A DNA stretch of 64,000 nt, taken from NCBI GenBank assembly GCA_003599885.1, contig QZKW01000030.1:1-64000 (forward strand), written 5' to 3'. The translations under genes were made by a program, and so were the position numbers. Below are positions 10,697-33,916 of this stretch, piece after piece. Each line of letters begins with the position of its first letter. The stretch's first letter is position 1. The notes under the pieces were generated by a model, which saw only the letters and a program-made list of their open reading frames with translations, was not told the origin of the DNA and searched no databases. This DNA is from Desulfobacteraceae bacterium. GTDB taxonomy: Bacteria > Desulfobacterota > Desulfobacteria > Desulfobacterales > Desulfosalsimonadaceae.

Positions 10697-13600
10697 ATGA
10701 ATACCCAAACAATTTCAGGATTTAAAAATTTCAGCGCATTCGCGGCCATACTCTTTATCCTGGCCGCTCTGCTTCTGTTCGGGGCTTCCACCGGCGCTGG
10801 GGAAACAACCATTGCAACGGGTGGCCCGGCCATCCTTTCCGCCTCCGAAATCGACTATCCGCCATTTTGCATCGTCGATTCGGATGGCCGGGCAAACGGC
10901 TTTTCAGTTGAGCTGATGCGTGCCGCTCTCAAGGCCATGGGCCGGGAAGTCACCTTCCGCACCGGGCCCTGGAAAGACGTCCGGGGCTGGCTGGAACAGG
11001 GCGAGGTGCAAGCATTACCGCTGGTGGGCCGCACTCCGGAACGGGAGCCCGTTTTTGACTTCACCGTTCCCTATATGACCCTTCACGGCGCCATCGTTAT
11101 CCGAAAAGGCACCCCGGATATCCGGAATCTGGATGATCTGAAGGGACGGCATGTTGCGGTGATGCAGGGAGACAATGCCGAGGAATTTCTGCGCCGTGTG
11201 GATCGCGGGATCGAAATCCATACGACAGCCACCTTTGATGCGGCGCTTCAGGAACTTTCCGAAGGCCGTCACGACGCCGTTGTCATTCAGCGGCTGGTGG
11301 CGCTTCGCCTTATCAAGGAAGCTCAACTTGCGAACCTCCAGATCGTCAATCGACCGATTGAAGGATTTCGCCAGGATTTTTGTTTTGCCGTTAAGGAGGG
11401 CGACCGGGACACACTGGCGCTGCTTAATGAAGGGCTGGCGGTGGTGATGGCGGACGGCACCTACCAGCACCTGCACGCCAAATGGTTCGCTGCCCTGGAA
11501 TTGCCGGCGAATCGCCGCATTATCGTCGGCGGGGACCACAACTACCCGCCCTATGAGTATCTCGATAAGCAGGGACGCCCGGCCGGCTACAATGTTGACC
11601 TCACGCGGGCCATCGCCAAGGCAATGGGCCTGGACATCGAAATCCGCCTCGGCCCCTGGTCCAAGATCCGGAAAGGGTTAGAGCGGGGGGAGATCGACGC
11701 CATTCAGGGCATTCTCTATTCTCCGGAACGCGATTTAATGTTTGATTTCACCCCGCCGCATACCGTGAACCAATATATCAGCGTGGTCCGCAAAGGCGAG
11801 GGGCCGCCGCCAACAAAGGTTGAAGGGTTGGCCGGAAAACGGATCGTGGTGCAGAAGGGCGATATCATGCACGATTTCGCACTAAAGAACGGACTTGGAG
11901 CGCAGGTGTCACCCGTCGATGCACAGGAGGACGCCCTGAGAGAATTGGCCCGGGGGCGCTACGATTGCGCGCTGGTATCGCGCCTGACTGCGCTTTACTG
12001 GATCGAAAAACACGGATGGGAGAACCTGATGGTCGGCCAAAGCCCTCTGCTCTCTCCTGAATATTGCTATGCTGTTGCCAAAAACAAACCCCTTCTGACC
12101 CAGTTCACCGAAGGGCTGAAAGTCATCGAAAAGAATGGGGAATACCGGCGAATCCGTAAAAAATGGATGGGAATTTACGGGGAGGATTCCCCCGATTTTA
12201 AAGACATCCTCCGGTACGTGGCAAAGGTCACGCTCCCCCTGTTCCTGCTCCTTTCGGTTTTTTTCCTGTGGTCTTGGTCCCTGCGCAAACAAGTGGCGAA
12301 CCGGACCGCGGCCCTGCGAAAGAGTGAGGAAAAATTCCGGGGCATCTTTGAGAATGTTCAGGATGTGTATTTTGAGGTAACATATGACGGCACGATCCTT
12401 GATGTCAGTCCTTCCATTGAAATTCTATCGAAAGGGCAATACCGCCGGAAGGATGTTATCGGCAAGTCATTGTTCGGTTTTTATGCAAATCCCGGAGAGC
12501 GGGAACTCGTTCTGGATGTATTGCAACAACAGGGCAGCGTTACCGACTACGAAATTACGCTTAAAAATCGGGACGGATCAAACCTCCCCTGCTCCATTTC
12601 CTCAAAAATACAGTATGATGTAAACGGTCACCCGATAAACATTATTGGCAGCTTGCGCGACATCACCGAGCGTAAAAAGGCCGAAGAAGAGCGGGAGAAT
12701 CTGCAGGAACAGTTGAACCAGGCGCAAAAAATCGAATCCATGGGCCGTCTGGCCGGCGGCGTGGCCCACGATTATAACAACATGCTCAGCGTGATTCTCG
12801 GATACACGGAACTGGCCATGGAAAAAGTGCCCTCAGATGACCCCCTGTATGCTGATCTCAAAGAAGTGCTTAAGGCCGCCAACCGTTCCACTGAGATTAC
12901 CCGGCAATTGCTTACATTTGCGAGAAAACAGACCATCAGTCCCAAAATACTCGACTTAAACGAAACCATAGAAAGAATGCTCAAGATGCTCCGACGGCTC
13001 ATCGGCGAGGACATCGACCTGGCCTGGCTGCCCGGAACCGGATTGGGCCTGATTAAAATGGACCCTTCTCAAGTGGACCAGATTCTGGCCAATCTGTGCG
13101 TCAACGCCCGGGATGCCATCGCGGATGTCGGCAAAATCATCATCGAAACGGGCTCGGTTACCTTTGACGAATCCTACTGCAGCAAGCATCCAGGCTTTGT
13201 TTCCGGTGATTTCGTAATGCTGGCGGTCAGCGACGACGGCTGCGGCATGGACAGAGAGACCCAGGATAAAATTTTCGAACCGTTTTTCACCACCAAAGGG
13301 GTGGGACAGGGCACCGGCCTGGGGATGGCGACGGTCTATGGCATCGTCAAGCAAAACGAAGGATTCATTAACGTCTACAGCGAGCCCGGAAAAGGAACAA
13401 CCTTTAAGATTTATCTGCCGCAAACAGCGGGAGAAGCCGGAAAAACCGAAGCAAAAAAAGCGGCGGCCATTCCTAAAGGCAGCGGCGAGACAGTGCTACT
13501 GGTGGAAGACGAGTCGATGATCATGAAGATGAGCAAGATGATGCTGGAACAACTGGGTTACCAGGTACTGGCCGCAAGCATGCCGGACGAAGCCATGAAT

Positions 13601-24987: not shown

Positions 24988-25357
24988 CTGAATGTGCGTC
25001 TCATATATAGCGTTGGTGACAGGATGTACCGGATGCGGCGTCATTCGCGTGTCAACCGGCATTAAAATCCGGGTATTTTATGCAAGTTAATTTTTTCTGT
25101 CAATTCAATAAACATTCATTAAAAATGATGGGAACGTTCTTGACTTTGATTTTTTTTTCATGTTTTATAATTCCTTTTATTTTTTTTATGTTTTTGAATT
25201 TGACCGGCCCCTGAGGGCGCCGCCAATTAAAAAAATATTTATTATATTATTAATTACATACACTTGAAATAACGCTTTTTTGCCCGAATGCATTTGATGT
25301 CGGAAAAATGGATATCGAGGCAGATATGCGTGTTTCGCCTAAAAGGAGGGAATCCTC
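24988..25357. other. intergenic region upstream of the metV-metF-hdr run
   Basis: A 370-base divergent gap, AT-rich in its right half, with no convincing gene. A perfect TATAAT (25166-25171) lies downstream of TTGACT (25140-25145), but the spacer is 20 bases, so the promoter is doubtful. Another TTGACC is at 25200. A GC-rich short hairpin (GCCC/GGGC near 25207-25218) is weak. The gap presumably carries the promoters for both the EF-G gene and the metV operon. AGGAGG just before 25358 is the ribosome-binding site of metV. Confidence 0.4.
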
Positions 25358-26032
25358 ATGATTGTTGCAGAAAGAAAGCCTTTTGATGAAATCAGGCAGC
25401 TAATAAAAGGTTACAAAAGAGTTCTGACCGTGGGCTGTGGCACCTGTGTGGCCGTCTGCCTTGCCGGTGGTGAAAAAGAAGTGGGCGTCTTAAACGCCGA
25501 ACTCAAACTCAGCCAGAAAACTGAAGCGGAGCCGGCCGGTTTTGGCGAAGCGACGGTCCAGCGCCAGTGCGATATGGAATTTTTGGATGAAATTCAACAC
25601 ATGGTGGGTGATTACGATGCCATCCTGTCCATGGCCTGCGGTGCAGGCATCCAGTTTATGGCCGAGCGGTACCCGGATATCCCGGTTCTGCCCGCCGTCA
25701 ATACCGTGTTTATCGGTGTAAACAAGGACGTTGGCTGGTACGAAGAACGCTGCAAAGCCTGCGGAAACTGCGCTCTGGGAGTAACCGGCGGCATTTGCCC
25801 GGTCACCATGTGCGCCAAAAGCCTGTTTAACGGGCCCTGCGGCGGCACCAACCAGCAAAGCTGCGAAATCAATGCCGACCAACCCTGTGCGTGGCACATG
25901 ATTTACACCCGGCTCGAAAGGCAGGGGCGTCTGGACAATATTCTGCAGATATTTCCGGCAAACGACTGGCGGAACCAGAAACCGCAGACGCTGGTCCAGC
26001 CGGGGTATGAGGAAAGAAAAGCATCTGAATAG
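25358..26032 (+). CDS. metV: MetV-like iron-sulfur/zinc protein (methylene-THF reductase partner)
   Basis: A 224-residue Cys-rich protein of the MTHFR_C zinc-finger family, which accompanies MetF in acetogens. Cys27, Cys30 and Cys34 lie in GCGTCVAVC, a second cluster appears as ERCKACGNC with further Cys near residues 147, 152 and 162, and CGGTNQQSCEIN closes the pattern. These residues probably bind Fe-S clusters or zinc and move electrons to MetF. It has a strong AGGAGG ribosome-binding site, and metF follows after 94 bases. In Moorella MetV is part of the MetFV-HdrABC-MvhD complex; the genes downstream here have the same types. Family known, complex membership inferred. Confidence 0.88.
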   Translation: MIVAERKPFDEIRQLIKGYKRVLTVGCGTCVAVCLAGGEKEVGVLNAELKLSQKTEAEPAGFGEATVQRQCDMEFLDEIQHMVGDYDAILSMACGAGIQFMAERYPDIPVLPAVNTVFIGVNKDVGWYEERCKACGNCALGVTGGICPVTMCAKSLFNGPCGGTNQQSCEINADQPCAWHMIYTRLERQGRLDNILQIFPANDWRNQKPQTLVQPGYEERKASE

Positions 26033-26126
26033 CAATTATTTTGAACATACTGTCAGTATTGGTTATTTTGTCGACCGGTTTTAGATCCTGCCGATAGCAT
26101 ATGACTTTAAAAAAGAGGAAGATATT

Positions 26127-27050
26127 ATGAAATCAGGAAGCACACTTGAAAAAATCTTGACCGCCGGACACTTTGCTTTCACCGGAGAGTTGGGCCCCCC
26201 ACGCGGTTCGAATATCGAAGCCATCCGAAAAAAGGCCGAGCCGTTAAAAGGGATGGTGGATGCGGTGAATATCACCGACAACCAGACTGCTGTGGTCCGT
26301 ATGTCCAGCTGGGCGGCGTCTCTGTTCGCCATTTCCGAGGGACTGGAGCCGAACTACCAGATGGTGTGCCGGGACCGGAACCGTCTGGCCATGCAGGGCG
26401 ACATCCTTGGGGCGTCGGCCCACGGCATCCGCAATATGCTGTGCCTTTCCGGCGACCACCAACAATTCGGCGACCATCCCCAGTCCAAGGGCGTGTTTGA
26501 CATTGATTCCACCCAGTTGATTCAAATGGTCAAAAAAATGCGGGATGAAGGCCAGTTCCTGAACGGTCAGGAAATCGACGGGCCGCCTAAAATTTTTATC
26601 GGCGCCGCAGCCAATCCGTTTGCAGAGCCTTTTGAATGGCGGATTTACCGGCTGGCCAAAAAAATCCAGGCGGGTGCGGATTTCGTCCAGACCCAGTGTG
26701 TTTTCAACATGGAAAAAATGCGGGAATGGGTTAAACGGGCCAACGACATGGGCCTGACCGAAAAAGTCTATATTCTGGCCGGCGTGACCCCCATGAAAAG
26801 TCTTGGTATGGCGCGATATATGAAATCCAAGGTGCCGGGAATGGATGTGCCGGATCATGTGATTGACCGTCTGAAAGGCGTGGAAAAAGGCAAACAGGCT
26901 GAGGAAGGCATTAAAATGGCCTGTGAACAGATTGCGGAATTCAAGGAAATGAAAGGCATTGCCGGTGTCCATCTCATGCCGATTGAATGGGAACATAAAG
27001 TCCCTGAAATCGCTGAACGGGCGAACATGCTTCCGAGACCGAATGTATAA
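26127..27050 (+). CDS. metF: methylenetetrahydrofolate reductase
   Basis: A 307-residue MTHFR of the MetF family. It converts methylene-THF to methyl-THF (or the reverse in oxidative C1 metabolism), using an FAD cofactor. The family barrel motifs are seen: GEIGPPRG-like start (FTGELGPPRGSNIEAI), NITDNQ strand near residue 49, GDHQQFGDHP loop near 112 and the FVQTQCVFN strand near 190 with the catalytic-type residues of the TIM barrel. It is a short form without regulatory extension, common in anaerobes. It lies between metV and the HdrA-like gene on one strand, with intervals of 94 and 63 bases. Electrons are likely supplied by the Hdr-type subunits that follow. Confidence 0.95.
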   Translation: MKSGSTLEKILTAGHFAFTGELGPPRGSNIEAIRKKAEPLKGMVDAVNITDNQTAVVRMSSWAASLFAISEGLEPNYQMVCRDRNRLAMQGDILGASAHGIRNMLCLSGDHQQFGDHPQSKGVFDIDSTQLIQMVKKMRDEGQFLNGQEIDGPPKIFIGAAANPFAEPFEWRIYRLAKKIQAGADFVQTQCVFNMEKMREWVKRANDMGLTEKVYILAGVTPMKSLGMARYMKSKVPGMDVPDHVIDRLKGVEKGKQAEEGIKMACEQIAEFKEMKGIAGVHLMPIEWEHKVPEIAERANMLPRPNV

Positions 27051-27113
27051 TCGCCTGATCGCGCCCATCACTTGGGGCATCCGCAATATAAATATGAAGG
27101 AGTTTGCAAACAA

Positions 27114-28349
27114 ATGGAGACGAAAAATGTCTTAGTCATCGGCGGTGGAATCGCCGGGATGACGACTGCCTTTGAGCTTGCCGAAGCCGGATTGAATGTG
27201 CATCTGGTGGAGAAAAGCGGCTTTCTGGGCGGCCATGCCATCCAGTATACCTGCAAAGCAACGGCTGAATGCCTGCAATGCGGAGCGTGTTCCGTGGAAA
27301 AAATGCTGAAAAATGTCATTGAATCCGGCAATATCACCATTCATTTATCCACTGAAGTTGAAACCATTGAACGATCGGGGGGCTATGCCCTTACCTTAAA
27401 AAAAAGCGCCGCGTATATTGACCCGGCCAAATGCACCAACTGCGGTGTCTGTTATGAGAAATACAAGGGTACCGGCATCATCGCCCAGGGATATTCAAAA
27501 AACAACTTCCCCCTTTATGCCATCTGCCCCGAAAAATTAAACAATGATGCGGCGGCCCTGAAAAGCGTCTGCCCGGAAGGGGCCATATCGATATCTGATG
27601 CTCCTTCATTTTGCCAGATCTCCGTTGACGCCGTAATCATTGCCAGCGGATTTGCGCCATTTGACGCAAGAAGAAAAGGCACCTACGGATATTCCCGTTT
27701 TCCCAATGTGGTCAACGGCCTGGACCTGGAACGGATTAAACGTCAATACGGATATCTGGCCCGGCCGTCGGACGGCCAGCCCGCCAAAAAAATCGCCTTT
27801 ATCCAGTGCGTGGGCAGCCGGGATGAGCAACTGGGCAATTTGTGGTGCTCTCAGGTCTGCTGCCCTTATGCGCTCCGGACCGCAGCTTCCGTCAAGCACA
27901 AAAATCCCGACCTGGATTTAACCGTCTTTTATATGGACATTCAGAACACCGGCAAAAGCTTTCCTGTGTTTTATGAAACCTGCAAGGACAATATCCGATT
28001 TATCCGGAGCATTCCGGTGGATATCTTTCCGATTGAAAATGACTGCCTGAACATTCGCTTGTTTGATGAATCGGAAGGTACCCCGGCCATGGAATCCTTT
28101 GATCTGGTGGTGCTTTCCACCGGCATCATGCCGAACCCGGACAACCAGAAACTTTCGGAGCAAATGGCTGCCTCTCTGGATACGGACGGTTTTTTCAAAC
28201 ATGCGGATGGCCTTGACCGGACGGCAACTGCAGCGGAAGGCGTTTTTATCGCCGGCACGGCCCAGGGCCCGAAAACCATTGCGGCCTCCATGGTCCAGGC
28301 CGGTCAGGCCGCCAGCGGGGTTCTGAAATATCTGGGGGTGACCAAATGA
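27114..28349 (+). CDS. HdrA/QmoA-like flavin and iron-sulfur subunit
   Basis: A 411-residue protein of the HdrA/QmoA type. The start at 27114 (METKNVLVIGGG) is preferred over the longer frame (TTG at 27072) because it gives the normal flavin-binding N-terminus and follows AAGGAG. The Rossmann FAD motif GGGIAGMTTAFELAEAGL is at about 10-27. The HdrA-type cysteines are TCKATAECLQCGAC near residues 45-60. A ferredoxin-type set (KCTNCGVC ... ICPEK ... CPEGAI) lies at about 105-160. A later Cys group, QCVGSRDEQLGNLWCSQVCC, near 235 is typical of HdrA. These proteins are flavin relays, bifurcating in some cases. Its stop overlaps the next start by ATGA. Confidence 0.88.
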   Translation: METKNVLVIGGGIAGMTTAFELAEAGLNVHLVEKSGFLGGHAIQYTCKATAECLQCGACSVEKMLKNVIESGNITIHLSTEVETIERSGGYALTLKKSAAYIDPAKCTNCGVCYEKYKGTGIIAQGYSKNNFPLYAICPEKLNNDAAALKSVCPEGAISISDAPSFCQISVDAVIIASGFAPFDARRKGTYGYSRFPNVVNGLDLERIKRQYGYLARPSDGQPAKKIAFIQCVGSRDEQLGNLWCSQVCCPYALRTAASVKHKNPDLDLTVFYMDIQNTGKSFPVFYETCKDNIRFIRSIPVDIFPIENDCLNIRLFDESEGTPAMESFDLVVLSTGIMPNPDNQKLSEQMAASLDTDGFFKHADGLDRTATAAEGVFIAGTAQGPKTIAASMVQAGQAASGVLKYLGVTK

Positions 28350-29983
28350 CGACAAAACAGCAAAACCAAGTGGAAAAAATACATCTGGAAACCACTGTCG
28401 CCGTGATCGGCGGCGGTTATACCGGAATGGCCGCAGCAAAAACACTGGCGCAAAACGGTTATCCGGTCATTCTGGCCCGTCAGGAAAATGACGGGGCGTG
28501 GCATGACACCTCATTAACCGGGCTTGACGGATTGAAAACCCTTGAAAACCAAGTGGCGGACAATGGGCCTATCGACATACTGTCTCAATCTACACTAATA
28601 GAAGCCGTCGGCGTTCCGGGAGACTTCACCCTGACGTTCATGTCCGAAGACCGGCGCGTGGAAAAAAAGGCAGGGGCCGTGGTTGTCGCCACGGACCTCT
28701 CATCCTCACCGCTGACCTTTATCTATGGCCTGACGCCATGCGCCAGCGTCGTCTCCCTTTCAGAGCTGGAATCCCTTCTGGCTTCTGAAACCGGTCAAAA
28801 AGAGATCGGTGATAAAAAGAAAACCATTGCCTTTTTGGTGGGTTTCGCCCATGAAGGCAACCCGCTGCTCATGCAACGGGTTCTGGAAAGCGTCCGGAAA
28901 ATCGTTGAGATGGATGGCTGCACGGCCTATGTTTATGTCAACAACCTGAAAGTCGCTGAAGACGGGCTGGAAAGACTCTATAAACAGGGCCGGGACAATG
29001 GCGCGATCTATTTTAAACTGCAAACAGCACCCACCGTCATCCAGAATAACGGTGACTTACGCATCACCTTTTATGACCCGGTGATTCGAAACAATATTGA
29101 ACTCTCACCGGATATAGTGGTGGTGGAAGAAAGTCTGGTTGCCGATCAACAAAATATTTCTCTTGCCGAAATTTTAAGAATCGATCTCGGACCTGCAGGT
29201 TTTCTGCAAAAGGAAAATGTTCACCGGCTGCCGGTCAACACCAACCGTGAAGGCATTTTTGTGGTCGGGGGCGGCCGGGAGATTCAGGGATTGTCCAAAT
29301 CTTTGGCTGACGTGGATAATATGCTGCTCCAGGTCAGACAGCTCATCGGCGGCGGCGAGAAGACCGTGGCGGCAAAGGCCGTGGTTGATCGTGAAAAATG
29401 CACCATTTGCCTGACCTGCTACCGCTGCTGCCCGCACGCCGCCATTTACTGGGATGATAAAGCCGTGATCTCCCCGGCGGCTTGTCAAGGATGCGGCATA
29501 TGCGCCAGTGAATGTCCCATGGACGCCATTCAGCTAACGGATTTCACGGATACGGAAATGACATCCCGGATCAGGGAAGCGGCGGCCGCAGAGACAAAAG
29601 CCGCTGCACCGAAAATCATTGCTTTCTGCTGCCAGAATTCGGCGTTTGAAGCAGGAACCGCAGCCGGACTCTTTCATTATGATCTTCCGGCAGGACTGCA
29701 GATCATCAAAATCCCCTGCGCCGGCAAAGTGGATATTAATTATATCCTGAACGCTCTGGTGGAAGGCGCGGATGGCGTGATTGTCATGGCCTGCCACACC
29801 GGCAACTGTAAATCCGAATCCGGCAACACTTACGCCAAATGGCGAATCAATGACGCTTACCGGAAACTGGAACAAATCGGCATACCAAAAAATCGGCTGG
29901 AATTTGCGACCCTGGCGTCCAACATGGCCAGCGACTTCGCCAGAATTGTTATTGACATGGAAAAAAGAATCAGTCAAAAATAA
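28346..29983 (+). CDS. HdrA-like flavoprotein with two ferredoxin clusters and MvhD-like domain (QmoB-like)
   Basis: A 545-residue fusion. Residues about 10-345 form an FAD/NAD-type domain (AVIGGGYTGMAAAKTL at the start, NREGIFVVGGGREI near 300). Two 4Fe-4S motifs follow: KCTICLTCYRCCPHA near 350 and ACQGCGICASECPMDA near 380. The last part from about 425 is MvhD-like (FCCQNSAFEAGTAAG, IPCAGKVDINYILNAL, ACHTGNCKSESGN), a 2Fe-2S protein domain that links hydrogenase-type electron donors to Hdr. The order is as in QmoB and in HdrA-MvhD fusions. Its start overlaps the HdrA-like stop by ATGA, so both subunits are made together. It lacks the CxnC pattern of the first HdrA, suggesting the pair works as one heterodimer. 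Confidence 0.88.
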   Translation: MTTKQQNQVEKIHLETTVAVIGGGYTGMAAAKTLAQNGYPVILARQENDGAWHDTSLTGLDGLKTLENQVADNGPIDILSQSTLIEAVGVPGDFTLTFMSEDRRVEKKAGAVVVATDLSSSPLTFIYGLTPCASVVSLSELESLLASETGQKEIGDKKKTIAFLVGFAHEGNPLLMQRVLESVRKIVEMDGCTAYVYVNNLKVAEDGLERLYKQGRDNGAIYFKLQTAPTVIQNNGDLRITFYDPVIRNNIELSPDIVVVEESLVADQQNISLAEILRIDLGPAGFLQKENVHRLPVNTNREGIFVVGGGREIQGLSKSLADVDNMLLQVRQLIGGGEKTVAAKAVVDREKCTICLTCYRCCPHAAIYWDDKAVISPAACQGCGICASECPMDAIQLTDFTDTEMTSRIREAAAAETKAAAPKIIAFCCQNSAFEAGTAAGLFHYDLPAGLQIIKIPCAGKVDINYILNALVEGADGVIVMACHTGNCKSESGNTYAKWRINDAYRKLEQIGIPKNRLEFATLASNMASDFARIVIDMEKRISQK

Positions 29984-30082
29984 CTCTGCTTTTAACTGTG
30001 ATGATGATATGAATTCTCAAAATTCCGGCCTGAAAAAGATGCGCCGGGATTTTTGGGACATAGAAACGGAGGATCGTAAAAT

Positions 30083-31402
30083 ATGGGTGAACCTGCTATC
30101 AAGCTTGGTGGAAAACGAAAAAGCACATTTATCGATAAGGTCAAGGAAATTCTCCCTGAAGGGGGGAATTTAAATCTCTGCCTGACCTGCGGGGCCTGTT
30201 CCTCGGGTTGTCCGGCGACCGGACTGGAAGGCATGGATCCCCGAAAGTTTCTGCGGATGGCGGCCCTGGGAATGGATGAAGAAATCACCAGCACCCCCTG
30301 GGTCTGGATGTGTTCCATGTGTACCCGGTGCATGTATGTCTGTCCCATGAAAATCAACATTCCGCAACTCGTGTACCACGCCCGGCAGAGCTGGCCGAGG
30401 GAAACCCGGCCCAAAGGGATTCTCGGGTCCTGCGATATGGCGCTCCGAAACGACACATGCAGCGCCATGGGTGCAACTGAAGAAGATTTTCAGTTTGTGG
30501 TCGAGGACATCCTTGCGGAATACCAGGAAGCCCAACCGGAATTCAAGGACATGCGCGCGGATATCAACCGTGAAGGGGCTGAATTTTTCTTAAATCAAAA
30601 CTCCAGGGAACCGGTCACCGAACCCGATGAAATGCTGCCCCTATGGAAAATTCTTCATTCGGTGGGCGCGGACTGGACATACAGCACAAAAGGCTGGGCC
30701 GCTGAAAACTACTGCCTGTTCATGGCAGATAATGAGAACTGGGAAAAAATTGTCCGATTGAAGGTGAAGGCCGTGGAGGACCTTAAATGCAAGGTCTGGC
30801 TCAATACGGAGTGAGGGCACGAACTCTTCGCGGTCCGGTTCGGAGCGCAAAAATTCAAGATCCCTTTTAATTTCGAAATCAAAAGCATCATTCAATATTA
30901 CGCCCAGTGGATCCGGGAAGGAAAGCTGAAAGTCAGCTCCGACTGGAACAAGGACCGGAAAATAAAATTCACGGTCCAGGATCCCTGCCAGCTGGTTCGT
31001 AAATCCTTTGGCGATCCCGTGGCCGATGATCTCCGGTATGTGGTTAAATCCGTGGTGGGTGAAGAGAACTTCATCGACATGACGCCTAACCGATCCAACA
31101 ACTTCTGCTGCGGCGGCGGCGGCGGGTTCCTTCAGTCCGGATACCAGGATGCCCGCAGGGATTACGGTAAAATCAAAGCCGACCAGATTCTGGCTACCGG
31201 CGCGGCCTACTGTATCACCCCCTGCCATAACTGCCATGCCCAGGTTCATGACTTGAGTGAAGTACGACACCATCCCTGGCAGACCACCCATCTGTGGACG
31301 CTGATTTGTCTTTCCATGGGCATCCTCGGACCCAATGAACGGGAATATCTGGGTGACGATTTAAAGGACGTGGATGTTTTTCATCCGGAATCTGAAGCAT
31401 AA
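30083..31402 (+). CDS. HdrC/HdrB(DsrK)-like iron-sulfur protein, selenoprotein with in-frame UGA
   Basis: Read through the TGA at 30812-30814 this is a 439-residue protein; read as stop it would end after 243 residues with a headless second part. The frame is open from 30815 to 31402 in the same phase. The N-terminus has two 4Fe-4S motifs (Cys33, 36, 39, 43 and Cys77, 80, 83, 87), the HdrC-like part. The CCG region follows: a first motif in which the UGA is residue 244 in TE-U-GHELFAVRFG, exactly where DsrK, HmcF and TmcB have ECGH, and a complete second motif with Cys302 (DPC), Cys342-Cys343 (FCCGGGGG), Cys381 and Cys384 (PCHNC). A hairpin resembling a bacterial SECIS follows. It is the last gene of the metV-metF-hdr run and has a GGAGGA ribosome-binding site. 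Confidence 0.9.
30812..30845 (+). promoter_or_regulatory. UGA codon with SECIS-like hairpin
   Basis: The UGA is followed, inside the coding sequence, by a stem CGAAC (30820-30824) pairing with GTTCG (30838-30842). The 13-base loop contains GGT (30832-30834), 18-20 bases after the UGA. Bacterial SECIS elements carry a G-rich (GGU) apical loop at about this distance, where SelB binds. The upper stem is short, so the fold should be tested by computation. Confidence 0.6.
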
Positions 31403-31781
31403 TTTATTTAAACAGTTTAAAAAAAGTATATGAACAGGGGACACCGAGCATTCGGTGTTCCCTGTTTTGTTTCAGGCGGATCAATGAAATAGCTGGAAGC
31501 TGTGGAAGAGAAAACTTTTTCCTGATCCGCAACATGACCCATTTTCAGAGCCGCAAGACATATGCACCGCATCCCGGAATGAATCAGTTGAGCCCTTTGA
31601 CATTTCCGGCCTGATTTTTCCTGATATTTCCGGTTTACCGTTCTCATTTTATTTGCTACGATTTCACCCATCATTTCCAATCATTCACCCCTCAACATCG
31701 CACAGACGATGCTGTCTTATCCGAAAGGATTTACACGATTGACCCGGCTTTGATATTTATTTTTTGAAAGGAGCACTTGCA
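31403..31781 (+). other. gap between Hdr operon and SPFH genes
   Basis: 379 bases. The first part contains a terminator (listed separately). The rest to 31781 shows no convincing gene; short frames on the minus strand have no support. An AAAGGAG site before 31782 belongs to the next gene. Confidence 0.5.
31433..31468 (+). terminator. strong intrinsic terminator of the metV-hdr run
   Basis: A long hairpin built from AACAGGGGACACCGA and its near-complement (TTCGGTGTTCCCTGTT) around a 3-base loop, followed by TTGTTTC, 30 bases after the selenoprotein stop. It would end the operon here. Confidence 0.9.
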
Positions 31782-32894
31782 ATGCCCGACAATCCGACCA
31801 ATGTGACGTCCTTATTTGAAAAAAAGACCAACCTCCGGTTTCGATTCCCGAAGATTACCCTCCCCCAGTCGAGAAGGTGGAACATCCTGATCATCATTGC
31901 AGTGGGAGTGTTTTTTTTCTTCAATCTCTTTTTCGTGTATGTCCGGCCTTATGAATACGGCATCAAGGTGGTCCGGGTAGGCATGAACCGGGGGGTTCAG
32001 AAAGAGGTGTATACCGCAGGCCTGAACTTTCTCCTGCCATTCGGGTTGCAGCAGATGTACCGGATTCCCAGAGAAATCCAGGTGCTGGAACTCACCAACT
32101 TTCCGGATACCGCCTCGAATGCGGCCAGAAAAGACCGAGCTGCCCATATCCAGACCTCGGACGGTTTTTTCGTGGATGTGGATGTCTCCATTCTTTACCA
32201 TATCAAGGACCCCTATCTGATGTTCACCACCATCGGTCCCGGCAATCTGTTTGAGGACAACGGCATCATTCCCAAGGCCGAGCCTGCCTTAAAAGAAACC
32301 CTCGGCAAGCTGACCACCGAAGAGTTCTACAACAGTCAGTTGCGGGTGAAAAAATCGGAAGAAGCCAGGGACCGGCTCAATAGCGAATTGAATCCCAAAG
32401 GCATTGAAGTATTACAGGTGCTGGTGCGCTATTTCAAATACAGCACGGAGATCCAGAAAAACATCGAGGAAAAAAAGTTGAAAGACCAGATGGTGTTTAC
32501 GAACCGGGCGGCCGCCCGGGCCGCGACGGAAGAAGCGGAACTCAAGAAAATCATTCAGGAAGGCATGGTCATCACGGCGGTAGAAATGGAAAAAGGCAAT
32601 GCCTATGTCACACGCAAAATCGCCGAAAAAGACCTCTATGTCCGCCGGAAAAAAGCCGAAGCCAACCTGCTGGTGAAGCTGGCGGAAGCGGAGCGGGTGC
32701 GCCTGAAGAATGATGCGTTAAAAGGCATCGGGTCCGAGCGCATGGTGGGGCTGAAAATGGCTGACGCCTACAAAGGACTGGATATCATCATCCTCCCCAG
32801 CGACGGCCCGAACGGTGTCAACCCGCTGAATCTGGACAACGCCCTGAAACTCTTTGACGTCCGCAAAGCGGATGGGAAAGGGGGTGAAAAATGA
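31782..32894 (+). CDS. SPFH-domain membrane protein (HflK/prohibitin-like)
   Basis: A 370-residue protein. The start ATG at 31782 is preferred over an upstream TTG because AAAGGAG precedes it. One N-terminal membrane segment (about 34-54, ILIIIAVGVFFFFNLFFVYV) is followed by an SPFH/Band 7 domain (about 55-245: PYEYGIKVVRVGMNRG, NFLLPFGLQQMYRIPREIQ) and a long charged coiled-coil (about 235-330, rich in EEAELKK and RKIAEK). Such proteins make membrane scaffolds; HflK/HflC act with the FtsH protease, and others associate with proton or ion transport. No ftsH is nearby. It overlaps the following SPFH gene by ATGA, so the two probably form a hetero-oligomer as HflK-HflC do. Confidence 0.85.
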   Translation: MPDNPTNVTSLFEKKTNLRFRFPKITLPQSRRWNILIIIAVGVFFFFNLFFVYVRPYEYGIKVVRVGMNRGVQKEVYTAGLNFLLPFGLQQMYRIPREIQVLELTNFPDTASNAARKDRAAHIQTSDGFFVDVDVSILYHIKDPYLMFTTIGPGNLFEDNGIIPKAEPALKETLGKLTTEEFYNSQLRVKKSEEARDRLNSELNPKGIEVLQVLVRYFKYSTEIQKNIEEKKLKDQMVFTNRAAARAATEEAELKKIIQEGMVITAVEMEKGNAYVTRKIAEKDLYVRRKKAEANLLVKLAEAERVRLKNDALKGIGSERMVGLKMADAYKGLDIIILPSDGPNGVNPLNLDNALKLFDVRKADGKGGEK

Positions 32895-33916
32895 AGCGCC
32901 TATTGATTGCGGTCAGTTTAATGGTGACGGTGCTGGCACAGAGTGGGTGCGTTCCCCATACCACCGGAGAAACGGAAGTGGGGGTCCGGACCCGCAAACT
33001 GGCGTTTTTGGGACCAAAGGGCGTGGAAGACCGCGCCTATGCGCCGGGAGCCACGTATTTTTTTCTACCGTTTATCAATGACTGGAATGTGTTTGACACC
33101 AAACTGCAAAATCTTGAAATGACGTATTCGCGTCAGCGGGGGGACCGGAGGAATCAGGATGACCTGGTGTTTAAAACCACCGACGGCAACGATATCAGCT
33201 TGGATGTGATCATTGCCTACCGCATTGACGCAGCCAAAGCACCGTATATTCTCCAGAACGTGGCCGAAAACGATGTGACCCTGCGGGATAAAATCGTCCG
33301 GACCGTGGCCCGGAGCAAACCCAGGGATATTTTCGGCGAACTGAAGACCGAAGCATTTTACGTGGCTGAATCCCGCGAAGCCCAGGCTGCCAAAGCCAAG
33401 GACATTCTGCAAAGCATTCTGGGGCCCATGGGTATTGTGGTGGAAAAGGTGCTGACCAATGACTACCGGTTTAACCCGGAATACCAGAAAGCCATTGAGG
33501 ACAAAAAGGTGGCGGACCAGCAGGTGGAAAAGAACAAGTCCGCCCAGCACGCGGCCACCGAGGAATACAAACGCAAACTGGAAGAGACCAAAGGTGAGGT
33601 CAACAAGATGGTGGCGGATGCGGATGGGGAATATTTGAAGGCCCAGATCGAAGCAGATGTATATTATGAGAAACAAAAACTGCTGGCCGAAGCCATCACT
33701 GCGGAAGGGATTGCCGAAGCCAAAGGGATTTTAGAAATGAACAACGCCCTGGCCGGGTCCGGCGGCGAAACCATCGTCAAACTTCAGATCGCGGAAGCGC
33801 TTCAGGGGAAACGCATCATCCTGCTGCCGGTGTCGGAAGGGGGCATGAATCTCAAGACCACGGACATCAACCGGCTGATCGAAACCATGGGCGTCAAGGC
33901 GCTTGGGGGAAAATAA
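32891..33916 (+). CDS. SPFH-domain protein with lipoprotein-like N-terminus
   Basis: A 341-residue SPFH/prohibitin-type protein, the partner of the preceding gene (ATGA overlap). Instead of a simple membrane anchor, residues 1-20 form a short signal followed by Cys20 (LAQSGC), close to but not a perfect lipobox, so it may be a lipoprotein. The SPFH domain covers about residues 30-210 (GVRTRKLAFLGPKGVEDRAY, the YSRQRGDRRNQDD region, DISLDVIIAYRIDAAK) and a charged coiled-coil about 195-265 (QVEKNKSAQHAATEEYKRKL). The C-terminus ends in a hydrophobic oligomerisation region. A terminator follows at 33972. The pair is separated from known HflK/HflC by the lipid-type anchor. Confidence 0.82.
   Translation: MKRLLIAVSLMVTVLAQSGCVPHTTGETEVGVRTRKLAFLGPKGVEDRAYAPGATYFFLPFINDWNVFDTKLQNLEMTYSRQRGDRRNQDDLVFKTTDGNDISLDVIIAYRIDAAKAPYILQNVAENDVTLRDKIVRTVARSKPRDIFGELKTEAFYVAESREAQAAKAKDILQSILGPMGIVVEKVLTNDYRFNPEYQKAIEDKKVADQQVEKNKSAQHAATEEYKRKLEETKGEVNKMVADADGEYLKAQIEADVYYEKQKLLAEAITAEGIAEAKGILEMNNALAGSGGETIVKLQIAEALQGKRIILLPVSEGGMNLKTTDINRLIETMGVKALGGK

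Follow-up and report, generated by a model that had tools for sequence, protein, structure and literature searches.

The window analysed here, a 64,000-nucleotide stretch of contig QZKW01000030.1 (positions 1 to 64,000 of the forward strand; assembly GCA_003599885.1), belongs to a Desulfobacteraceae bacterium. On one strand it carries the genes metV-metF-hdrA-hdrA/mvhD, and then a gene for a putative selenocysteine (Sec)-containing protein of the HdrD type. The genes and features were as follows:

25358–26032, + strand: metV-like gene, PF12225 (methylene-THF reductase C-terminal family)
26127–27050, + strand: metF, methylene-THF reductase, PF02219
27072–28349, + strand: HdrA-type flavoprotein 1 (TTG start as listed; ATG at 27114 likelier by eye)
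28346–29983, + strand: HdrA-type flavoprotein 2 fused to MvhD/FlpD (PF02662)
30083–31402, + strand: Sec-containing HdrD-type (HdrC+HdrB fused) iron-sulfur protein, 439 aa with the UGA read through
30179–30343, + strand: two [4Fe-4S] motifs, C33, C36, C39, C43 and C77, C80, C83, C87, each in 70/70 family members
30812–30814, + strand: in-frame UGA, Sec244, context NTE-U-GHELF; TGA, TGC or TGT in 140/140 family copies
30818–30820, + strand: His246, aligned with EtfD His583 (noncubane cluster ligand)
30830–30848, + strand: bacterial SECIS upper stem, 30830–30837 with 30841–30848, loop 30838–30840 (GUU); 7 of 8 pairs form here
30986–31234, + strand: CCG2 cluster-ligand set C302, C342, C343, C381, C384, each in 70/70 family members

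The Sec HdrD gene starts 99 bp behind hdrA/mvhD, and the gene set of an Hdr-type methylene-THF reductase (metV, metF, hdrA, mvhD, and an HdrBC-type gene) was found together at 25358–31402. Ten terminator-like sites were counted in 25000–31800, which was no excess over the 8.7 in shuffles. Downstream of the Sec HdrD gene, two adjacent SPFH/Band 7 proteins (PF01145) were encoded at 31764–33916.

The plain open reading frame 30083–30814 terminates at TGA. As the original prediction had stated, the same phase stays open beyond it: the frame from 30083 contains this single TGA (codon 244) and runs without a further stop to the TAA at 31400–31402. In the read-through protein, Pfam detected Fer4_8 (dicluster ferredoxin) at residues 30–91 and CCG at residues 297–388. 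The architecture first proposed, two ferredoxin motifs followed by two CCG motifs, held in part: the Fer4 motifs and CCG2 are present, but the first CCG motif is degenerate, and a single CCG domain was recognized by Pfam. The Cys positions left in CCG1 are C211 and residue 244 only, with C211 assigned from spacing, without alignment to a solved structure. Judging from its sequence, the gene product is a full-length soluble HdrC+HdrB fusion (HdrD type). HdrB has two complete CCG motifs, which bind two noncubane clusters (PMC13083937); with one CCG domain by Pfam, the protein does not match this description of a catalytic heterodisulfide reductase (HdrB/HdrD).

The protein scored 160.3 bits against TmcB (NF045724, cut-off 735), 157.7 bits against HmcF (NF045711, cut-off 750) and 105.5 bits against DsrK (NF045796, cut-off 400). 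These were its best NCBIfam matches, and because the scores are far under the cut-offs, the protein is HdrD-like and lies outside those three families. The name GlpC was not borne out by score (22.9 bits against TIGR03379, anaerobic glycerol-3-phosphate dehydrogenase subunit C, with a curated score of 279.9).

The aligned codon in 140 family copies was TGA in 121, TGC in 18 and TGT in one, and no other codon was found. These family counts were restricted to copies of at least 45% identity, which excluded 2 of the 142 long matches (loci L047–L146 and L154–L193; TGA 122, TGC 19, TGT 1); matches covering under 330 query residues had been dropped, and the loci include some genomes present twice, from two collections. 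After identical proteins were removed, the 135 distinct ones gave TGA in 116, TGC in 18 and TGT in one. The close homologues that the original prediction proposed to compare therefore do not end at the aligned site, and all of them have Sec or Cys there. Since the 19 family copies without TGA all have a Cys codon, an amino acid other than Sec for TGA was rejected. TGA was also present in 80/80 loci of a named genome collection, where the codon was located by motif search; these were the best-scoring of at least 536 confirmed loci, so that the figure describes near relatives only. At locus L126, the copy scored was the tandem neighbour of the match, and both carry TGA.

An extra in-frame TAG or TAA was flagged in six copies, none of them at the Sec site. 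When five of the six were re-examined, three kept the extra stop (residues 229, 420, and 431) and two had none in the aligned part; in the sixth, read in L142, it was at 433. In L157 (7652–8950), an in-frame TAG stands 15 codons upstream of the TGA, for which pyrrolysine, sequencing error and decay are candidates.

For the tree and codon sets, near-copies were removed, and 69 of the 140 copies were kept, which together with the window's gene made 70 rows. Seven changes between Sec and Cys were counted over these rows (shuffled mean 15.5), of which strong branches force four; the bootstrap left the number unsettled, and the changes carry no direction. Synonymous codons appeared frozen behind the UGA. 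Among 377 codon windows of 11 residues in the 53 Sec genes, the eight with the highest excess synonymous-codon identity all begin at residues 244–251; in the Cys genes (n = 17), the codon window at 245 ranked 263 of 329.

The region of this codon freeze contains the hairpin. The original prediction was right in placing a hairpin downstream of the UGA, but not in its distance: the UGA is followed by the stem after 15 nt and by the loop after 23 nt, instead of 18–20. According to the available description of the bSECIS model, the loop is 3–9 nt long with G in one of the first two places, and a stem of 4–16 bp lies 16–37 nt from the UGA (PMC13188914). In the hairpin here, the loop has 3 nt with G first and begins 23 nt past the UGA, and the 8-bp stem has a single mismatch in the window. 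The mismatch is G-G, and by folding energy the window's own hairpin was not distinguishable from shuffles (z −1.05; 30/200 shuffles as good).

Across the compared sequences, the structure is an 8-pair stem with a 3-nt loop, whose first G is invariant. Covariation was measured on the 48 distinct sequences obtained from the window plus 50 of the 80 loci. In these, 92.2% of stem cells were paired, compared with at most 39.1% when the stem was slid, a comparison biased in its favour because the stem was read off the same sequences as were scored. The covariation score was 0.181 against 0.081 in shuffles (0/500 as high), and 18 cells had changed on both sides against a shuffled mean of 5.7 (0/500 as high). 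Two of the five covariation measures were within shuffles, namely the pairs with two-sided changes (3; 160/500 as high) and the further pair types (9; 109/500). The loop-closing pair changes from G-C to U-A in some sequences, where residue 252 goes from Arg to Leu, and the outermost stem pair was unpaired in 25 of the 48 sequences. The comparative evidence is strong that the hairpin at 30830–30848 would direct Sec insertion at the UGA.

The original prediction had been made dependent on the Sec machinery, and profile scores above the cut-offs were obtained in this genome for selA (608.8 bits), selB (369 bits), selD (364.8 bits) and tRNA-Sec (74.7 bits); absence of selB or selC was thus not observed. 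The selD of this genome itself contains one TGA. SelB occurred in 263 of 297 genomes of the phylum sample (35/37 with the Sec/Cys HdrD family and 228/260 without it, p 0.28), and its near-ubiquity means that its presence shows compatibility only. The draft genomes G142 and G178 each carry a TGA copy but gave no SelB match at E 1e-60.

The preference for Sec insertion over a frameshift or mutation is thus supported by the codon comparison, SECIS covariation, codon freeze and Sec machinery together. Under the opposite reading, the UGA reflects a genuine stop, frameshift or error that left a truncated HdrC-like protein and a remnant, which agrees with the closure of the plain frame at the TGA. 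It conflicts with the uniform TGA in the 80 best-scoring loci of the named collection, the Cys codon in the 19 of 140 family copies that lack TGA, the constrained hairpin and codons, and the presence of selA, selB, selD and tRNA-Sec. Its probability appears negligible, and from these comparisons a stop, frameshift or pseudogene at 30812–30814 is considered very unlikely.

All 70 family members share the eight ferredoxin Cys, C117, C211, Sec or Cys at residue 244, H246, C302, C342, C343, C381, and C384. The sequence ECGH, which the original prediction gave for DsrK, HmcF and TmcB, was present in all three proteins of this genome, which were identified over the NCBIfam cut-offs (DsrK 747.9 bits, TmcB 750.9, HmcF 927.7). 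They also share the CCG2 ligand set with the window's protein, except for the last Cys in DsrK. They differ in that C117 is missing from all three, and the C211 position is Cys in TmcB (L200) but not in DsrK or HmcF. E-C/U-G-H was also found in a contig-25 paralogue of this genome, which has UGA at that residue and lacks C117 and a Cys at the C211 position. This HdrD-like paralogue (contig 25, 37392–38405, L202) belongs to another lineage and carries its in-frame TGA in YPE-U-GHA; a further HdrD-like paralogue, in L162 (3339–4481), has an in-frame TGA in WPE-U-GHA. These two paralogues suggest that Sec is used at the site in more than one branch.

The position of Sec244 was mapped with a profile of the CCG half. 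By hmmsearch, it matched EtfD of Mycobacterium smegmatis (E 7.7e-7), with residue 244 on Cys581 and H246 on His583, and the DPC, CCG and CxxC sequences fell on the EtfD noncubane ligands. The hmmsearch alignments to HdrB stop short of residue 244, and the HdrB equivalent is not given by sequence. In EtfD, the linear [3Fe-4S] cluster (D1) has Cys581 among its ligands, and the noncubane [4Fe-4S] cluster is completed by His583, which replaces the displaceable bridging Cys of HdrB (PMC13083937). EtfD resembles the window's protein in having two [4Fe-4S] motifs and two CCG domains (PDB 9ojn; PMC13083937); its CPHC loop aligns with U-G-H-E here, and the noncubane ligands are common to both. It differs in its membrane part and heme region, which are absent here, and in having Cys581 where Sec is found here. 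EtfD Cys584 has no Cys counterpart, its position being occupied by E, S, V, M, A or I, and no Cys was found in family members near the position of EtfD Cys503.

The predicted structure of the CCG half (pLDDT 82.6) matched entire HdrB chains in the PDB (8rvy_B, Z 21.5, 247 residues, rmsd 2.8; 5odc_B, Z 20.1), the LutA model 9a6l_A (Z 19.5), EtfD 9ojn (Z 18.9, 238 residues) and a Helicobacter protein (3kwl, Z 16.0); the next row was at Z 7.6. The full-length model was weaker (pLDDT 68.1, with the ferredoxin part under 50), and it matched EtfD with Z 22.0 over 349 residues. A strand and a helix flank the U-G-H loop in the model of the CCG half, as they do the CHNC loop of the second CCG domain. 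Sec244 would stand where the degenerate CxxC of CCG1 has its first Cys. An active-site role of residue 244 is suggested by analogy, the aligned EtfD residue being a cluster ligand and not proven catalytic.

The gene company of the family was variable. Neighbourhoods were compared for copies with 4.5 kb on both sides, identical proteins being merged (140 to 135), and neighbours were identified by tblastn with the window's proteins (E 1e-8), by which distant relatives may be missed. Among 67 distinct Sec copies, metV or metF was found on the same strand near 19 and hdrA near 32: 17 had met genes and hdrA, two met genes only, 15 hdrA only, and 33 neither. The 13 Cys copies comprised ten with hdrA only and three with neither, and met genes stood beside none of them (0/13). 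The 33 Sec copies without met or hdrA nearby indicate that the partnership with MetVF and HdrA is not obligatory. Copies beside metV and metF include divergent ones, namely those in L177, L178 and L189 (52–54% identity), L170, and L193.

Three family copies were found in this genome: the window's Sec copy, a second Sec copy on contig 37 (L047), and a Cys copy on contig 28 (614–1909, L154). The contig 37 copy had no met or hdrA matches nearby and lay ~3.6 kb from hmcF on the other strand. The Cys copy was followed by HdrA-like (1038 aa) and MvhD-like genes and lay ~10 kb from a second selB. The copy of Desulfospira joergensenii DSM 10085 (L105) likewise stood apart from met and hdrA, and with these two Sec copies MetVF cannot be the sole partner. 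In the phylum sample, the family was found in 37 of 297 genomes (E 1e-120), and 12 of the 37 have two to four matches at this threshold, one of those in G142 being partial. The family-bearing genomes more often carried dsrA (33/37 against 111/260 without the family) and CdhC of the Wood-Ljungdahl pathway (31/37 against 154/260, p 0.0035), both comparisons being confounded by kinship. A search of a plasmid collection gave two weak matches.

The window's protein belongs to a kind of selenoprotein that is already known. An "Fe-S oxidoreductase (GlpC)" was listed as a selenoprotein family in 2006, with operons containing hdrA-frhD-frhG-frhA (PMC1794560), a Sec HdrD4 was listed for Desulfobacterium autotrophicum HRM2 in 2009 (PMC2702500), and the motif UGH was given for an Fe-S oxidoreductase-like (GlpC) selenoprotein in 2026 (PMC13188914). 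The window's protein has U-G-H in a ferredoxin+CCG protein, as in the table entry of the last source, and its in-frame TGA aligns with Cys in homologues, as is expected of a bacterial selenoprotein. With the Sec GlpC family (PTHR43551), it shares the Sec-GH in an HdrD-like Fe-S protein of Deltaproteobacteria and the association with hdrA (PMC1794560; PMC13188914). The published operon is hdrA-frhD-frhG-frhA plus glpC, whereas the window has metV-metF-hdrA-hdrA/mvhD; the likeness is by motif and description, not by accessions. HdrD4 was likened by description as well, as a soluble HdrC+HdrB-type selenoprotein of a sulfate reducer (PMC2702500).

The gene set resembles MetVF-HdrBCA-MvhD of Moorella and Sporomusa, as described in the available texts, in its metV, metF, hdrA, mvhD and HdrBC-type protein; there, HdrB and HdrC are separate, whereas here a one-piece Sec HdrD has a degenerate CCG1 (PMC9430772; PMC5736913). 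HdrABC beside metF was reported in Seep-SRB1g, in a source whose main text does not contain the word "selenocysteine" (PMC10553843). Among the literature matches listed, no earlier report was found of a Sec HdrD beside metVF, of EtfD-based mapping of the site, or of Sec with noncubane clusters. The gene company with methyl-folate enzymes and the mapped Sec position are useful additions.

The reading that we consider probable combines Sec insertion, service in the methylene-THF reductase, and thiol exchange at Sec244. Sec would be inserted at UGA 30812–30814 by SelB, tRNA-Sec and the hairpin 30830–30848, and an Hdr-type methylene-THF reductase would most likely use the protein as the subunit at which electrons leave or enter. 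The gene order and the Sporomusa and Moorella precedent suggest that this reductase runs oxidatively in the sulfate reducer. Electrons may leave methyl-THF by way of MetVF, MvhD and HdrA and reach the two cubane clusters, then the noncubane cluster of C302, C342, C343, C381 and C384 capped by His246, and then Sec244, two residues from His246. The Sec244 selenolate would exchange with a thiol/disulfide partner, for which invariant C211 or C117 could be the resolving thiol. By the models of DsrK, TmcB and HmcF, we take a DsrC-type protein to be one candidate partner. If His246 caps a noncubane iron as in EtfD, that cluster would be no disulfide catalyst, and the adjoining Sec or Cys would be the remaining reactive candidate, which is an argument and not a result. 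For this locus we propose that an Hdr-type methylene-THF reductase has a site based on selenium, for electron exit or for thiol/disulfide chemistry. Pull-downs in Sporomusa ovata showed MetF binding to HdrA and HdrB, MvhD to MetF, HdrA and HdrB, and MetV to HdrA but not to HdrB; a possible dithiol partner is considered by the authors, and the two dithiols/thiols tried had no effect (PMC9430772).

Two other explanations were weighed against a dedicated thiol-exchanging subunit. In one, a second Fe-S cluster at CCG1 (D1) is bound directly by Sec244 together with C211 and perhaps C117, and the role of Sec244 is electron transfer instead of thiol exchange. The alignment with EtfD Cys581, itself a D1 ligand, and the invariance of C117 and C211 (70/70) are as expected for such a cluster, and the lack of C117 in this genome's DsrK, TmcB, HmcF and contig-25 paralogue points the same way. 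C211 is not family-specific, since TmcB (L200) also has Cys there; its equivalence to EtfD Cys538 is by spacing only; C117 is outside the modelled CCG part; and the Cys584 and Cys503 positions of EtfD have no Cys here. On balance, a ligand role of Sec244 seems unlikely, and a modified D1-type cluster bound by Sec244, C211 and C117 beside the His-capped noncubane cluster seems improbable. If true, electrons from methyl-folate oxidation would travel through an Fe-S cluster with a natural selenolate ligand.

The other explanation concerns the partners: one Sec-HdrD may be a general soluble electron hub that works with several HdrA/MvhD modules and a shared thiol partner, with metVF as one use. 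In its favour, no met or hdrA gene was near 33/67 Sec copies, 12 of 37 family-bearing genomes have several matches, and this genome has two Sec copies and a Cys copy beside its own HdrA-like and MvhD-like genes. The published operons that pair the selenoprotein with hdrA-frhD-frhG-frhA (PMC1794560) are also consistent with a hub. However, the metV/metF adjacency in divergent copies suggests a dedicated role for those copies. We therefore regard the general hub as quite possible, with somewhat less than even confidence, and argue from the copies standing apart that MetVF may be one partner among several.

A gene finder that takes UGA as a stop splits this gene, and as a result the HdrD-type partner of the methylene-THF reductase module can drop out when carbon metabolism of sulfate reducers is modelled from genomes. 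With Sec mapped beside what is probably a His-capped noncubane cluster, a list entry of 2006 becomes a testable question, whether the selenium is a ligand or a reactive selenolate. This genome encodes the protein in both a natural Sec and a natural Cys version, which offers a ready comparison.

Two SelB proteins with 27% identity to each other and two tRNA-Sec genes, both with a UCA anticodon, were observed in this genome. The SelB and tRNA-Sec genes were located at 11517–13542 of contig 28 (in L154), 61909–63798 of contig 10 and 27744–27837 of contig 26. At least two SelB matches were found in 21 of the 297 phylum genomes, a count that includes possible split genes. G73 of tRNA-Sec is held essential (PMC5330540); the second tRNA-Sec has U at position 73, as read by eye. 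The second selB and its tRNA-Sec adjoin each other between two rhodanese-like genes, which scored below the NCBIfam cut-offs and looked lipoprotein-like by eye.
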